A DNA stretch of 64,000 bases from Halobacteriales archaeon YIM A00010 (lineage in GTDB: Archaea; Halobacteriota; Halobacteria; Halobacteriales; Haloarculaceae): the NCBI GenBank assembly GCA_025041175.1, contig JAKCFJ010000004.1:434001-498000 (forward strand). The letters are read 5' to 3'. The translations under genes and the position numbers were made by a program. Of this stretch, positions 35,490-42,909 are shown piece after piece. Below the pieces are notes generated by a model, which saw nothing but the letters and a program-made list of their open reading frames with translations, was not told the DNA's origin and made no database searches. Each line of letters starts with the position of its first letter. Position 1 is the stretch's first letter.

Positions 35490-35947
35490 TCAATCAGGAG
35501 GATCGAGACCGTAGCACTGCTTTGCCACGGTCAGGAACTGGTTCGCGTCCACTCGCGGCGCATACGACTGATTCTCGCCGTCGATGGCGAGTTTTACCAG
35601 TAGATCGACGAGTCGCCAGACGTTGTACAGCACGCAGCGAACGCGAAATTGAAGAACCGATAGTCGCGCTCGGTTGAGGTGGTCCGCACCATGAAGTGTT
35701 TCTGCTTTGTAAACCCGTTCTCAATACCCCAACGACGGCGATACCACCGGATTAGCCGCTCGATCATGTGGATGAATTCCTTCCCATCCATCCGCTGTCC
35801 GTCGGCGTCACGCGCCGTCACGTAGGGGTGGTTCGTCTCGAAGACGACGGTTTCAGCGGTGTCTACGTCTCCATCCTGAGCTTTCTGCTTGCGCTCTTCG
35901 ACTTCCTCTTCGCGCTGAATGTCCGCGAGCAGCCGCGAAAATGACAC
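35490..35947 (-). pseudogene. C-terminal fragment of a DDE transposase
   Basis: A diverged copy of the transposase at 36170-38113. It keeps HMIERLIRWYRRRWGIENGF with the catalytic Glu, then RFFNFAFAC. A one-base loss near 35640 moves CVLYNVWRLVDLLVKLA to the PPD end into another frame. The first 500 residues are gone. It shows an earlier insertion of a related element at the same place. Confidence 0.7.
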
Positions 35948-36169
35948 CCTCTCGCTTGGTTCTCCCTCTACGAAGAGACAATGAGGTGGTCAAATAATCG
36001 CCTGGAATTGGCTGTGTTCGGCCTGTTTATGAGTTCATCGAGGCAACTTCCGGGGAGTTCTACACACCCCCTGTTCCGAATGTATTGATAACGCCAACAA
36101 CTTGGGCAGAATTATCTATCACAGAGAGGGCTACCACTCACCAAGCGCGATCCCGAAGAGAAGTCAGCG
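35948..36169. other. Spacer between two related transposase genes
   Basis: No gene seen. The outer ends of one or both elements should lie here, but no clear inverted repeat was matched. Confidence 0.3.
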
Positions 36170-38113
36170 TCAGACGGGCGGATCGAGACCGTAATACTGC
36201 TTCGCTATCGTCACGAATTGGTTGGCGTCGACACGCGGCGAGTATTCTGGGGACTCCTCCAGCGAGAGCTTCACGAGTAGGTCGACGAGTCGCCACGTGT
36301 TGTACAGCACACACGCGAACATGAAATTGAAAAACCGATACCGGGGACAGGTCGACGTCGTCCGGACCATGAACGTCTTGATCTTCTTATACCCATTCTC
36401 GATCCCCCATCGGTGGCGGTACCACCGAATCAGACGCGCTATCATGTGGATCTGCTCGCGTTCCGTATAGGGTTCGCCGTCCTCATCACGAGCCGAGACA
36501 AACGGGTGGTTGGTCTGGAACACCACGAATCCCGTCCCGTCACCATCGGCATCCTCCGTCCCCAGGTCCTCATCGTCCCCACGGAGATCGCTGAGCAAGC
36601 GAGCCAGCGGTGAGATCTCCTCACCAAGATCTACCTCGTCGATACCCAACTCCTCGCACATCTCCTGACGGTAGTTCGGTCGGTCGGGAACATCAGATTC
36701 GGACGGTTGATCCTTCTTATCATCATCGTCTGACGTCTCCGTTGTCGACGGCAGAAAGAGTTGCGTCCGATTCGGTCGGTCCTCATATCGCTCCTCGACA
36801 ATGCGGACGGTCTCGTCACGCTGTTTCATCTCGGCGATGGTGTCGTTCTGGGCAGCGAATTTTCGCTTCGGGTTGAGATTGTAGACGCCGTAGACCTCGC
36901 AGATATCCTTGACCGGATCGCTATCGAACTCGCGGTCCATCATCAGGAGGCTGATGTCATCGACCATGTCGGTCGCGTGATTCAGCAATTCATCCACGAT
37001 CTCATCCTTCGACATCCCGCGCTGTTTCGGCACCACGTCGAGGACGAGCGGGATATCGTGACCGACGATTTGGATACTCGCCCATTGATGGTAGTAGTTG
37101 CCGTCCCGATGGCCAAGGATGTACGGTTCGACCACGTTTCCTTCCTCATCGGTCTCCATCTCGCCGGTGAACGGCGCTCCCTTCGTCACGTCGATCGCTG
37201 CCCATAGCTTGCCAACGAGTTCACCGTCCCGCCGCGCGCGCTCGATGAGGCGCTGTGTGGTGCGGCGGTGTTGCTGGCGCATTTCTTCAATCGTGAGCGT
37301 ACGGATCTGCCAGCGGTGGGTTGATCCGGAGGGCGTTCTGTCGCGGGTTGAATCGACGTAGAAACTGTCCGCACCACTCTCGGCGAACATATTTTTCCGG
37401 ACGCCCATGAATGCGTGTTGTTCCCAGAACGCGTTTTCGTGAATCTGGGCGTTATCGCCACGTTTCAGGAAGAACTCATCGGTGACGAACGGTTTCGCGT
37501 GTTGCCAGACCTCTTTGGTTGTGTCCGCGATGAGCCGGGGTTCCGATCGCTCCGAGATCTCCTGTGTATCGTCGGGCTGAAAAACATCGTCAGGGGCAGG
37601 GATACCCTCCTCACGTGCCAGTGCGACGAGTTCCGTCGTAATCTCACGACAGATGGCTCGGAGGTCGTCACAGAACTCCTCGTGCCACATCTCCCAGAGT
37701 CGAGACTGGGTTGGTGGTTGCGGCTGCATCCGTTCCGACTCCCCCGTTGGATTACTGTCGATGAATCCGTATGCGACCGTTAGCTCCGGGTGCTCTTTGA
37801 AGTATTCGGCAAGCTGTTTCTCGCCGTTCCAGCCCATCGCCAGTTTGAGAACATGCGCTCTGATCCACGGCGCAAGCGGGGTGTAGTTACGATGCCACGT
37901 GGCCCGTGTATCGGGGAGGTTCGGATCGACCGTCAGGTCGCTGATCAGGTCCTCAACGGTTGGGTCGTCCGTAACTACCCCAACATAGCGGAGCGAGAAT
38001 CGGAATCGGTTATCATGGTCGCCGGCAGCAGAACGGAGAGAAAGGTCGTCGGAGGAGTCCCACTGGAGATCGAACGCTGGGTCCGAGCTTCGTGCTGGTG
38101 ACTGTGATTCCAT
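36170..38113 (-). mobile_element. Insertion sequence with a long (647 aa) DDE transposase
   Basis: Intact frame. First Asp in WAAIDVTKGAPFTG, second Asp in LLMMDREFDSDPV, and Glu in YRHRWGIENGYKKIKTFMVR, the Y-R-E-K order of the IS4-like superfamily. It has an acidic insert (about 470-560) between the second Asp and the Glu, rich in Asp and Glu (DDDDKKDQPSESD, DDEDLGTEDADGDG). Coordinates are those of the coding frame. It lies between the MFS operon and the tryptophanase locus. Confidence 0.85.
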
Positions 38114-38253: not shown

Positions 38254-38604
38254 CTACGTTTCGAAGATGAGCTGTGCTCCGTCTGGCGTTTCAGCGATTG
38301 CGGTGATCTGTTCCATCTCCTTCAGGAACGTGGCGACACGTTCACCAGCTGCCGTCAGCTGGTACAGCGTGCGGGGGGGAGTCGTCGGGAGCGTGGACTT
38401 CTCGATGAAGCCTTTCTCTGTGAGATCCGAGAGTCGTCGGGAGAGCATCGTCTCGGAGATCCCGTCGATTTCCTGTTCCAGCTCGCCGAACCCGTGAGAG
38501 TCCGCCGCGAGGACCTGGAGGACGTGCAACGCCCATTTGTTGCCGAGTCCCTGCTGAAGATAGTGCCAAGTATGCTGCCAGTCGTCCGTCGTCTTCTCAG
38601 GCAT
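38254..38604 (-). CDS. HxlR-family winged-helix regulator
   Basis: 116 residues. Typical HxlR/DUF24 layout: GLGNKWALHVLQVLAADSHG, FGELEQEIDGISETMLSRRL, SDLTEKGFIEKS and a wing with PPRTLYQLTAAGERV. Such regulators bind DNA as dimers and often sense redox or small electrophiles. No cysteine is visible, so cysteine-based sensing is unlikely. A 21-bp element 35 bp upstream is identical to one 35 bp upstream of tnaA, making tnaA its best candidate target. Confidence 0.92.
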   Translation of the reverse strand: MPEKTTDDWQHTWHYLQQGLGNKWALHVLQVLAADSHGFGELEQEIDGISETMLSRRLSDLTEKGFIEKSTLPTTPPRTLYQLTAAGERVATFLKEMEQITAIAETPDGAQLIFET

Positions 38605-38933
38605 GGTTCTATCTCAACGGGATAGAGAGATAAATAGTGAGGCCGACTCACACATCCGAAAGCCGATCAGCCAGCCATGGCAGGGGAGCCGTGGTTGTAC
38701 TGGGCGATGGATGCTAATGCCGCCCGTGAGCGGGTGTATCAGTTCGCACAACCACTACGCGTACCGCCGATCGAACTCGCTGAGCGATAGTAGCAACACA
38801 TAGGCATCAGCAACGGTATTCATAGAGGGATTTTCATCATTTGTCGTAGACTCCGGAGCCAGCGATCGATAGACGGCGGGAAGCCAGACACTTCCGAGCC
38901 GCCGAGTGGGGACCAGGACTTCTATATATCGGG
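38605..38933. other. Intergenic region between the HxlR and tnaA genes
   Basis: Contains the shared 21-bp element next to the HxlR start. The remaining 270 bp show no credible gene. Confidence 0.35.
38639..38659 (-). promoter_or_regulatory. 21-bp element upstream of the HxlR gene
   Basis: GAGGCCGACTCACACATCCGA with the near edge 35 bp before the ATG at 38604. It is identical to 40348-40368 and includes a CCGA direct repeat 13 bp apart (start to start). Confidence 0.65.
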
Positions 38934-40313
38934 TCACTTCTCGATCGGTTCGAGGTCCGCAGTGAAGTGGCGCAACTCCGGCATTGACGGCTCGCCAGCG
39001 ATCCGATACCCCGACACTGTCTCGCGGCGCTCGTAGACGGCTTCGACGGTCTCGATCACGTGCTGGCGGTGCTCGCGGTGGTAGGTCCGCCGGGGGACCG
39101 CCAGGCGTGTTAGTTCGGGTCGATCGGCGTCTGGAAACACGAGCGAGCCGAGTTCGATGCCCCGAATGCCACCCTCCCGGTAGAGTTCACAGACCAGCGC
39201 CTGGCCGGGGAATTCTGCGGATGGGATCTCCGGGAAGAACTTACCGGCATCGATGTAGACGGCGTGTCCGCCCGGCGGTTGGTAGACAGGGATGCCTGCC
39301 TCGGCGAGACCGTCGGCAAGTTCGCGCACGCTAGCGACCCGGCCAGCGACGTAGGAGTGCTCAACTGCTTCTCTGAGCCCCACCGCCATCGCGGCCATGT
39401 CCCGGCCAGCCATTCCGCCGTAGGTGAAAAAGCCTTCATAGAGGATTCCCCGCTGTTTGCAGGTCTCAAAGAGGTCGTCCAGACCGGGATCGTCGGCAAC
39501 TGCGACGAATCCCCCGGCATTGACGAGACCGTCTTTCTTCCCGCTCATCACGACAGCGTCGGCAAAGGCGAGTTGTTCGCGGGCGATCTCTGTGACTGTG
39601 GCTCCCGCATATCCTTCCTCGCATTGCTGGACGAAGTAGGCGTTCTCGGCGAACCGGCAGGCGTCAATCACCAGTACGGCACCAACTTCGTTGGCCAGCT
39701 CGCGGGCGCGACGGACGTTCTCGACGCTAACGGGCTGGCCCGCTGCCGAGTTGTTGGTGATCGTGACGACGATAGCCGGGACGTTCTCGGGACCGACCTC
39801 CGCGATTACCTCGAGGGCGCGATCAATATTGAGGTTTCCTTTGAATGGCACTGTCGAGTCCATCTCCCAGGCCTCTGGTGCCGGACAGTCAACGGGATCG
39901 GCGTCCTGGGTGGCGACGTGGGCCCGCGTCGTATCGAAGTGGGTGTTGTTGAGCACCACGTCACCCTCCTCTAAGAGAGCGCCGTACAGCACGTTCTCGG
40001 CTCCCCGTCCCTGGTGGGCCGGGACGATCTGCTCGAAGCCCATCACGTCCGCGACGGCGGCCCGGAGTTCGTGGAAGCTCTCTGATCCAGCGTAGGCCTC
40101 GTCGCCACGCAGCAAGGCAGCCCACTGGTCGTCGCTCATTGCGCCGGTACCCGAGTCAGTCAACAGATCGACGTACACGTTGCGCGCATCAATGTTGAAG
40201 ATGTTGTATCCCGCCGCTTCTAAGATCACGTCTCGCTCGGCGCGGTCCGGGAGTTCAATCCGAGTCGCCACCGTGGTCTTGTAGGCGAAATCGTCTGTCG
40301 TTGTCGTGGGCAT
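38934..40313 (-). CDS. tnaA: Tryptophanase
   Basis: PLP-dependent beta-eliminating lyase that turns L-tryptophan into indole, pyruvate and ammonia. The 459-residue protein has the full family length and motifs: NVYVDLLTDSGTGAMSDDQW, AHQGRGAENVLYG, ITNNSAAGQPVS, DACRFAENA and the PLP lysine in VMSGKKDGLVNAGG. Tyrosine phenol-lyase is close in sequence and cannot be fully excluded. The ATG at 40313 is preferred to the one at 40340 because the 21-bp element then has exactly the spacing found at the HxlR gene. Divergent from the B3/B4 protein gene. Confidence 0.93.
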   Translation of the reverse strand: MPTTTTDDFAYKTTVATRIELPDRAERDVILEAAGYNIFNIDARNVYVDLLTDSGTGAMSDDQWAALLRGDEAYAGSESFHELRAAVADVMGFEQIVPAHQGRGAENVLYGALLEEGDVVLNNTHFDTTRAHVATQDADPVDCPAPEAWEMDSTVPFKGNLNIDRALEVIAEVGPENVPAIVVTITNNSAAGQPVSVENVRRARELANEVGAVLVIDACRFAENAYFVQQCEEGYAGATVTEIAREQLAFADAVVMSGKKDGLVNAGGFVAVADDPGLDDLFETCKQRGILYEGFFTYGGMAGRDMAAMAVGLREAVEHSYVAGRVASVRELADGLAEAGIPVYQPPGGHAVYIDAGKFFPEIPSAEFPGQALVCELYREGGIRGIELGSLVFPDADRPELTRLAVPRRTYHREHRQHVIETVEAVYERRETVSGYRIAGEPSMPELRHFTADLEPIEK

Positions 40314-40347
40314 ACTGATGTGATCGGTGGTATTTGCCATAACTCAC

Positions 40348-40368
40348 GAGGCCGACTCACACATCCGA
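40348..40368 (-). promoter_or_regulatory. 21-bp element upstream of tnaA
   Basis: Identical to 38639-38659 and 35 bp from the preferred tnaA start. It is also 45 bp before the divergent B3/B4 gene start, so it could serve both. Confidence 0.65.
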
Positions 40369-40412
40369 TAGTACGCGCAACTGTTAATTGGCCTTTATGA
40401 GACCAGTGAGAT

Positions 40413-41087
40413 ATGGAACCGACGTTCACCATCACCGACCCCGTCTCCCAACGCTTCCCGGACTTGGATGTGCGGTCGTTCGTCGTTGAGGGGACGAGAA
40501 TCGATGCCGAGTCCGAGCAGTTTGAGACGTTCAAGGACGACATCCTCGAAGAATTCCGCTCGGCCCACGACAGGAACGACCTCGCAAAAGACCCGCTGTT
40601 CGAAGCGTATCGCGCGTTCTTCTGGGACCTGGACATCGACCCGACGAAGACCAGACCCGCCGCAGAGGCGCTCGCCCGCCGGGCGCTCCAAGACAAGCCG
40701 ATACCGACGATCAACACGTTCGTCGACGCGTACAACCTCGCGTCGCTGACATCGAAGGTCCCGCTGGCCGCGTTCGACCGCGATTTGCTGGGCGAAGAAC
40801 TTCGCCTCCGGTTCGCCGAGGACGGCGAGCCGTTCCGTGGCATTGGGATGGACGATCCGACGACGCTCGCGGGCGGGGAGCTCGTCATCGACGATGGCAA
40901 CTCATTGATCGCTGTCTACCCCTATCGCAATTCCGCCGCCACGAAGCTCACGCTGGACAGCACCGACGCATTCGTGCTGGTCTGTGGTGTTCCCGGTATG
41001 TCCGGTTCCGTGCTGGACCGGGCGAGCGAGACGGCCAAAGCGAACGTGACACGGTTCTGCGGCGGCGATGTCATTGAGACCTCCTGA
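40413..41087 (+). CDS. B3/B4 tRNA-binding-domain protein
   Basis: 224 residues with the B3/4 fold of the phenylalanyl-tRNA synthetase beta chain as a stand-alone protein. Conserved pieces include FFWDLDIDPTKTRPAAEALA, IPTINTFVDAYNLASL and the AGGELVIDD stretch. Stand-alone B3/B4 proteins are thought to edit mischarged tRNA or act on related aminoacyl compounds. Divergent from tnaA with 99 bp between preferred starts and sharing the 21-bp element, which suggests a link to aromatic amino acid supply. Confidence 0.85.
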   Translation: MEPTFTITDPVSQRFPDLDVRSFVVEGTRIDAESEQFETFKDDILEEFRSAHDRNDLAKDPLFEAYRAFFWDLDIDPTKTRPAAEALARRALQDKPIPTINTFVDAYNLASLTSKVPLAAFDRDLLGEELRLRFAEDGEPFRGIGMDDPTTLAGGELVIDDGNSLIAVYPYRNSAATKLTLDSTDAFVLVCGVPGMSGSVLDRASETAKANVTRFCGGDVIETS

Positions 41088-41508
41088 CATGCTACTCACG
41101 GTGCTCCACGAGGCAACGCTATCATCGGTCCTGTGGTGAGCACCCTGCATATCATTCTTCCTCTAGTGATGTTTTTACCACTCATTGTTGGGTATCGCCT
41201 GGATGCCTGCGAACTATCGATACGCATTCCTCCACTTCAGAGACATTTTCTGTGACTCTCAGAAATATATCTCTTTTATGATACTATTTGCTCTAGTTTG
41301 AGCCACTTCCGAGATATCTCTCTGATAGGTGGTTTCTACTCAGATCACAGCGACGGCGCGCTAAACGAAACGTATGATGCGTAGAGTACACTATCACAGC
41401 GACCTGATTGGCGGTGAGTGCTGATCCAAGCGATTATCTCTGACCTAATTGCCTACTGTCTCAGAGAGCTTCGACCCCACAAGGGTTCGGCTGAAACTCG
41501 AGTAATCG
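41088..41508. other. Intergenic region
   Basis: AT-rich with several TATA-like runs. No coding frame on either strand looks real. Confidence 0.35.
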
Positions 41509-41612
41509 CTAGTCGGCTGCCTCGTCCAACAGCCGGTTCACGACCGTATCGAACGACTCGTCTGCGTCCGTGCGCTCGCTGACCCGGTTCCAGGTCTCGG
41601 TGCTCAGATCGA
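41509..41612 (-). pseudogene. C-terminal remnant of a ribbon-helix-helix-type antitoxin
   Basis: The last 34 residues, VDLSTETWNRVSERTDADES followed by FDTVVNRLLDEAAD, match the short VapB-like/DUF7557 antitoxins of haloarchaea (LS-ETW-RL-R, ESFD-VI-RLL). Upstream the frame enters DNA that codes for TnpB on the other strand, so the start was removed by that insertion. No toxin gene remains. Confidence 0.4.
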
Positions 41613-42284
41613 CAGCGACGACTGGGAACTCACCGAAAGCACCCTCAGCAAACGCGACGGGACGTACTACATCCACCTCGGGTTTCGCCGCTTCGCCACC
41701 GACGCGGAGCGCGAAGCCGCAAAGGGCCACGCGAACGATACGACGACCGAGGACGGGACGGTTCTCGGTATCGATCTCGGCGTGGCAAACCTCGCGGTCA
41801 CATCCATGGGATGTTCATTTCAGGCGACGAACTCATCCACTGGCAAAACGAATACGGGCAGCGCCGCGCGTCCATGCAACAGACCGGCATGTGCTGGGCA
41901 CACATCGATATGCAGCGCGTCGGCCGGAAAGAAGAGGGCCGGTTCACGATCATGTTGCACGAAGCGGCGAACGCAATTGTAGCCGAAGCGGAAGCGAACG
42001 ACTGTACGCATATCGCGTTCGAGAAGTTAGACGGGATCCGCGACCGTCTCCCATTGGGCGACATGGGGCCACGTATGGGCCTTCCGCCAAGTGTCCGACT
42101 TCGTTTCGTACAAAGCGGTTGCTCGCGGGATAGCGGTTCGACAGGTAAATCCGAAGAACACATCGCGCCAGTGTTCACGGACGGACTGTGGGTTTACGCA
42201 CCCCGACAACCGACCGTGGACGGACGGGCAGGACGAGTTCTATTGTCTGAAATGCGGCTATGAGGTGCATGCCGACTACAATCG
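41593..42284 (+). pseudogene. TnpB (IS1341/IS605 OrfB) remnant, truncated and frameshifted
   Basis: Starts inside the protein (QIDSDDWELTESTLSKRDGT, YYIHLGFRRFATD), then GTVLGIDLGVANLAVTSMG with the first RuvC Asp. After a frame change it goes on with [36 protein letters not shown] (RuvC Glu), and after another with [20 protein letters not shown] and [14 protein letters not shown], the C4 zinc ribbon and final Asp. N- and C-termini are missing and at least two shifts are present. Inactive. No TnpA is present. Confidence 0.8.
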
Positions 42285-42909
42285 TGAGAATGTCCATCCC
42301 TCCCCCGAGCGGAGTCGCCGAGCCTCCGGCCGCTGCGCCCCACCCGATCGCTAGCAAGACGAGTGTGGGATAGGCCGACGTCTTGATCTCATCGGTCGTC
42401 TCGTAGCCCTGAAAGGCGAGGATCGTCGCCGCGATCGGAACAAGCATAGCGGCGACGACAGTGTCGGCGATCACGGCCGAGAACCCCGCTGATAAGCCGA
42501 ACTATACCATGAATTGGCGCTTCGCGCCGGTTCCCACGACAAGTAGCGACCTGAGGGCAATCCGCTTCGTGAATCCCCAGTACTGCTACCCCATCGCCAC
42601 ACCGACGGCACCCAGAATAAACAACACGAGCGGATCCCAGTACACCGACACCACCCGCCACCACGGGGCGATCGGAAGCACACTGACCACGAGCACCGGC
42701 AGTGAAAACGTCACTTCGAGCCGGACACACTGGGTCACGAGCCAGACGAAAATCCAGGCCAGCAGCCCGAGCATCCCACGAATCTGCCAGCTGACGTCTG
42801 CGGGGATCGCCAACGAGAACAGAAACAGTGCAGGATCCAGAACGATGAGACCGGGCGAGCCACGCGGCTTGATGATCTGATCGATGACTTGTCCGATCTC
42901 CGTACTCAT
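42280..42909 (-). pseudogene. SLC13-type anion permease, N-terminal part, frameshifted
   Basis: Begins MSTEIGQVIDQIIKPRGSPG then hydrophobic segments up to WDPLVLFILGAVGVAMG, where the frame changes at about 42590. The continuation (GLSAGFSAVIADTVVAAMLV then PIAATILAFQGY and [16 protein letters not shown]) is the SLC13/DASS signature region, including the SNT-like substrate loop. It is cut at about 42280 by the TnpB remnant. Probably once imported sulfate or dicarboxylates. Confidence 0.65.

Follow-up and report, generated by a model that had tools for sequence, protein, structure and literature searches.

Closest described systems

The gas-vesicle promoters of haloarchaea carry the GvpE UAS, a 20-nt activator site adjoining the BRE, and its closeness to the BRE is essential (PMC4390858). 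In Bacillus subtilis, HxlR is summarized as a positive regulator of the catabolic operon hxlAB (Yurimoto 2005, cited in PMC4776306). CtdA is a stand-alone B3/4 protein acting as a canavanyl-tRNA deacylase, and its gene lies beside canavanine-degradation genes in Pseudomonas canavaninivorans and Rhizobium leguminosarum (PMC10018355). The regulator of the inducible tnaA promoters of haloarchaea, including that of Haloferax volcanii, was not named in the literature found.

The window, i.e. the whole stretch of 64,000 nucleotides that was analysed, contains hxlR, tnaA and a B3/4 gene side by side, in the following called the cassette. Two copies of a 21-bp element lie at its promoters. Like the GvpE sites, they are about 20 nt long, adjoin the BRE/TATA on the upstream side and stand at what would be the own and the target promoter of a locally encoded circuit. 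GvpE is leucine-zipper-like with two 8-nt half-sites, whereas the cassette encodes a winged-helix HxlR and no half-sites were established. The cassette regulator and B. subtilis HxlR belong to the same protein family (PF01638, MarR/DUF24). The latter carries a conserved cysteine in its N-terminal part and is responsive to formaldehyde, while the former has no cysteine, other targets and another site. As with the tryptophan-inducible promoter of Haloferax volcanii, a haloarchaeal promoter is found upstream of a tryptophanase gene; in genus g60, inferred to be probably Haloferax, all 12 tnaA loci were without the element, however, and their tnaA is ~62% identical to that of the cassette. With CtdA, the locus shares a stand-alone B3/4 protein adjoining an amino-acid-degrading lyase. 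The differences are the tryptophanase-type lyase, the archaeal host, the neighbours tnaA and hxlR, and a similarity of only E 8.5e-8.

The repeated element in the window

The sequence GAGGCCGACTCACACATCCGA was found at 38639–38659 and at 40348–40368 on the plus strand, with 0 mismatches each. No other exact direct repeat in the window reaches 21 bp, and the base composition predicts ~0.0005 pairs of this length or more. Allowing up to three mismatches, neither a third copy in the window nor a further place in the whole 5.97-Mb genome was found. Unrelated promoters across the genome, where copies had been named in the first-pass annotation as a point against a regulatory role, were thus free of it.

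Read on the minus strand, the element is TCGGATGTGTGAGTCGGCCTC and faces hxlR and tnaA. The gap to the start codon comprises 34 bases (an offset of 35) in both cases, with the ATG of hxlR at 38604 and that of tnaA at 40313. The tnaA-side copy also lies 44 bp before the ATG of the divergent B3/4 gene (40413). The DNA around the copies differs: 8/50 positions were identical in the upstream 50 bp and 11/34 in the spacers between element and start codon. The first-pass annotation had described the identical copies, their differing surroundings, the equal distance of 35 bp to both starts and the position before the B3/4 gene. All of this holds, and the observation is stronger than first claimed.

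Dyad symmetry was not significant in the four aligned sites (two from the window and two from the second genome described below), as the best palindrome register was matched in 306 of 1000 shuffles. A palindromic operator was accordingly dropped.

Genes of the cassette

hxlR (38254–38604, minus strand) encodes an HxlR-family winged-helix regulator of 116 aa. Its HxlR domain (PF01638, residues 20–100) scored 68.6 bits, above the Pfam gathering score of 20.8 bits, and the protein matched the solved relatives YodB and HxlR. There are no cysteines in its 116 residues, nor in the homologue of the second genome, and hence no N-terminal redox/electrophile-sensing cysteine as in MarR/DUF24 sensors, a feature that defines a subgroup and not the entire HxlR family.

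tnaA (38934–40313, minus strand) encodes a tryptophanase-type PLP lyase of 459 aa, as judged by alignment to solved tryptophanases and by the NCBIfam tryptophanase subfamily model (NF009709, PRK13238; 626 bits, cutoff 285). The lyase stayed below the equivalog cutoffs of the bacterial TnaA models (TIGR02617: 434 of 825.8; NF053783: 496 of 750) and below the cutoff for tyrosine phenol-lyase (TPL; TIGR02618: 438.8 of 720.7). In the alignments, it has ELRHFTADL and GIELGS where the solved TPL has LRFFTAR and SMERG. Tryptophanase is told apart from TPL by the C-terminal RHFT histidine and by the lack of the arginine that TPL has at position 381. By these residues, the lyase falls on the tryptophanase side.

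The third gene (40413–41087, plus strand) encodes a stand-alone B3/4-domain protein (PF03483; 86 bits, cutoff 29.3). Its nearest solved relative is CtdA (PDB 9f7e), to which it is related by sequence. The protein is a probable aminoacyl-tRNA deacylase.

Promoter layout

The element lies upstream of a TATA-like stretch at both genes and not within a leader. At hxlR, it ends 2 bp before TATTTAT (38630–38636, minus strand), i.e. a site of about 20 nt directly adjoins the BRE/TATA, as in the GvpE geometry. The position of TATTTAT is consistent with a leaderless transcript. In the alignment, ACTATTTATC at the hxlR promoter is identical in the window and the second genome and placed for a leaderless start. 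At tnaA, a weak TATA-like GTTATGG (40337–40343, minus strand; ATTATGG in the second genome) has nearly the same offset as its counterpart at hxlR. For the B3/4 gene, the sequence suggests a TATA-like TTAATT (40384–40389, plus strand) 24–29 bp before the ATG.

A longer in-frame tnaA ORF start exists at 40340. In the second genome, the ATG at the matching place is not in the tnaA frame, whereas the counterpart of 40313 is conserved as a start, at an offset of 36 bp. A start at 40340 is therefore unlikely, and the start at 40313, which had been assumed for the distance of 35 bp, is supported by this comparison.

A second cassette in G104

Relatives of the B3/4 protein at E 1e-30 were found only in this genome and in G104, among 392 genomes of the order. 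Judging by the tree, G104 belongs to another family, the Haloferacaceae. No further cassette carriers were found in viral contigs or in the remaining members of the genus and family of G104. Plasmids had no B3/4 carrier, and all their HxlR matches were below 50% identity.

The genes of G104 are arranged as tnaA-hxlR-B3/4, all in one direction. Between the two genomes, the cassette proteins are 81–89% identical (HxlR 89%, B3/4 81%), and the helix-turn-helix region of HxlR (residues 35–69) is identical. In G104, the tnaA of the cassette (L114:289–990) encodes only 233 aa: a clean in-frame deletion has removed residues ~206–421 from its interior, and the upstream element is intact. A separate full-length tnaA is found elsewhere in G104 and groups with the Haloferacaceae in the tree. 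The two cassette copies of tnaA pair with each other with 100/98 support, apart from this gene. Moreover, five genomes sampled from the genus to which the window belongs had no tnaA at the cutoff used. The cassette was probably transferred horizontally, as these comparisons suggest.

The element of G104 before tnaA is 20/21 identical to that of the window, with 35 intervening bases, and the element before hxlR is 16/21 identical, with 34 intervening bases. The adjacent 50-bp upstream flanks share only 15/50 (30%) at tnaA and 20/50 (40%) at hxlR. Position 10 of the element is G in both G104 copies and T in both window copies.

The repeat could also be a scar of recombination or insertion, with 21 bp duplicated in direct orientation when tnaA came to lie next to hxlR, and would then have no regulatory role. 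The copies do flank tnaA as direct repeats. Remains of insertion sequences are nearby (an ISH3/IS4-like transposase at 36170–38113 and a TnpB fragment near 42091–42354), and the cassette appears horizontally acquired. In G104, however, the same two promoters carry both copies, which are only 17/21 identical to each other there, so the repeat is old. Sequence identity does not go beyond the element, yet the promoter offset is maintained, and the inner edges of the copies showed no terminal inverted repeats. The interval 38660–40347 thus does not look like an element bounded by a target-site duplication: it holds tnaA, and neither a transposase nor terminal inverted repeats were listed for it. 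Twenty-one base pairs is also long for a target duplication. We regard a scar as very unlikely.

In a special case of this, tnaA would have entered between adjoining hxlR and B3/4 genes and the junction would have been duplicated; relatives would then be of the form hxlR, element, B3/4. The one-direction order tnaA-hxlR-B3/4 of G104 rules this out.

The likeness between the two cassettes stops at the last hxlR codons (window 38254–38268, L114:1455–1492). The B3/4 gene is downstream of hxlR in G104 and divergently upstream of tnaA in the window.

Specificity of the element

The consensus CGGANNTGKGAGTCGGCMTC occurred exactly only at the four cassette promoter sites in the 392 genomes of the order. 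Matches with one mismatch to a looser consensus were commoner than those of the reversed-pattern control (57 vs 9 places), which on its own would fit a chance match or an ordinary repeated coding word. The excess arose probably because the word suits haloarchaeal codons. In 30 loci inspected from the CGGANNTGKGAGTCGGCMTC search, one was the window's own site and most one-mismatch sites were inside long open frames; a single repeated sequence context accounted for nine of the inspected one-mismatch matches. With ~0.0005 exact pairs expected in the window, the exact consensus confined to four cassette promoters, and the offset to both start codons conserved in two genomes, a chance origin is refuted, and we give it practically no weight.

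In haloarchaea, ~100 further tnaA loci, the 12 of genus g60 among them and some present in more than one collection, had no element. Matches with up to five mismatches were found in 15 of these upstream regions, where nine were expected from shuffled sequence, and they had no constant place. As the matches were not clearly above the shuffled level and their positions scattered, a general haloarchaeal tnaA motif was ruled out. Those of the other haloarchaeal tnaA loci whose surroundings were examined had no HxlR or B3/4 neighbours within the stretches fetched. The upstream regions of 25 HxlR homologues (~40–52% identity) also had no element, and a general HxlR-family site was ruled out on this basis. 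The search near tnaA in other haloarchaea, which the first-pass annotation had proposed, hence speaks against the element as a general control of haloarchaeal tnaA genes. Its role as a promoter-proximal regulatory site specific to the cassette is supported by these sequence comparisons.

In genus g60, the tnaA upstream regions (L185–L196) share a different conserved stretch, ctcgattttccgcct...attacttcac, which is a candidate for the site of their different regulator.

Proposed regulation

The 21-bp sequence is probably the operator of the cassette-encoded HxlR, which would control tnaA, hxlR and B3/4 together. Since the site is confined to two promoters, a local regulator is suggested. The cassette HxlR would be its natural binder, because it co-occurs exactly with the element and its helix-turn-helix is identical in both genomes; it is by far the likeliest candidate.

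HxlR would bind at about -55 to -35 of the putatively leaderless promoters, beside the BRE. The copy directly upstream of the hxlR BRE/TATA (38639–38659) would provide autoregulation. The copy directly upstream of tnaA (40348–40368) lies within the region shared with the divergent B3/4 gene and would bring tnaA under the control of HxlR. The B3/4 gene would be reached via this divergent intergenic region in the window (TTAATT) and via the operon in G104. Since hxlR and B3/4 overlap by 4 bp in G104, each of the three genes is connected with the element in either gene order. The link to the B3/4 gene that had been proposed from the window is thereby strengthened. Through the bound protein, an amino-acid signal would act on the tryptophanase, on the tRNA-deacylase-like B3/4 protein and on the synthesis of HxlR itself.

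Activation and repression by HxlR are nearly balanced. Activation fits somewhat better, because the element adjoins the BRE and the TATA of tnaA is poor. The ligand may be indole, tryptophan or an amino acid related to it, and the only thing that makes the first two plausible is the lyase. An indole or tryptophan circuit governed by HxlR had been predicted in the first-pass annotation. What stands of this is a cassette-specific site with HxlR as the likeliest binder, kept at both promoters in G104 and absent elsewhere in both genomes; its generality does not stand, given the ~100 tnaA loci that have no element.

Several points weigh against HxlR and its operator. A homodimeric winged-helix protein would often recognize a dyad, and no significant one was found. 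The cassette is present in two genomes only, so the conservation amounts to one comparison. Because the cassette tnaA of G104 has lost its middle, the conservation there cannot reflect present control of a working enzyme. Lastly, a different protein could be the binder. A regulator encoded elsewhere or a particular TFB/TBP pair might occupy the element, with HxlR a mere co-regulated neighbour. Haloarchaea have many TFBs and regulators, the element adjoins the BRE/TATA and the sites have no clear dyad, all of which suits such an outside factor. From a general factor, however, more would be expected than two sites in 6 Mb and two in G104, and the element is present exactly where this hxlR is and absent from the other sampled genomes. 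An outside binder is thus unlikely, and the cassette HxlR is kept as the probable one.

Possible function of the cassette

A local regulator with its operator is ordinary as a kind, but this one is well defined. It is a fully specified candidate regulator–operator pair for an archaeal tryptophanase, with a 116-aa protein and a 21-bp site at two promoters, and protein and site each have a second natural variant. Promoters of haloarchaeal tnaA genes serve as standard inducible tools; a compact, orthogonal switch would be a useful addition.

The more unusual lead is that one regulator may control both an amino-acid lyase and a tRNA-editing protein. Given the likeness of the B3/4 protein to CtdA, a tRNA-editing enzyme, the cassette may combine the breakdown of an amino acid with the proofreading of tRNA charged with that same amino acid. 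Possibly, the B3/4 protein is a trans-editing factor for an aromatic amino acid. By analogy with the bacterial canavanine/CtdA arrangement, the whole could be its archaeal counterpart, a horizontally mobile cassette that joins a PLP amino-acid lyase and a stand-alone B3/4 tRNA deacylase with a cysteine-free HxlR acting through one 21-bp site. An aromatic amino acid or analogue would be degraded, and tRNA that had been mischarged with it would be cleared. This wider proposal is doubtful at present. The link between lyase and tRNA editing suggests an unexplored quality-control function in archaea.

Neighbouring mobile-element traces

The ISH3/IS4-like transposase gene adjoins hxlR. A diverged partial second copy of its 3' part was found at 35500–36451 (74–83% identical, ~678 bp apart). 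On the other side, beside the B3/4 gene, a remnant of a TnpB-type gene with a Cas12f1-like TNB domain and broken frames extends over 41500–42354. Far from the cassette, a perfect inverted repeat of ~23 bp was observed at 524–546 and 2310–2332. Its arms, ~1.8 kb apart, are possible ends of a further mobile element.
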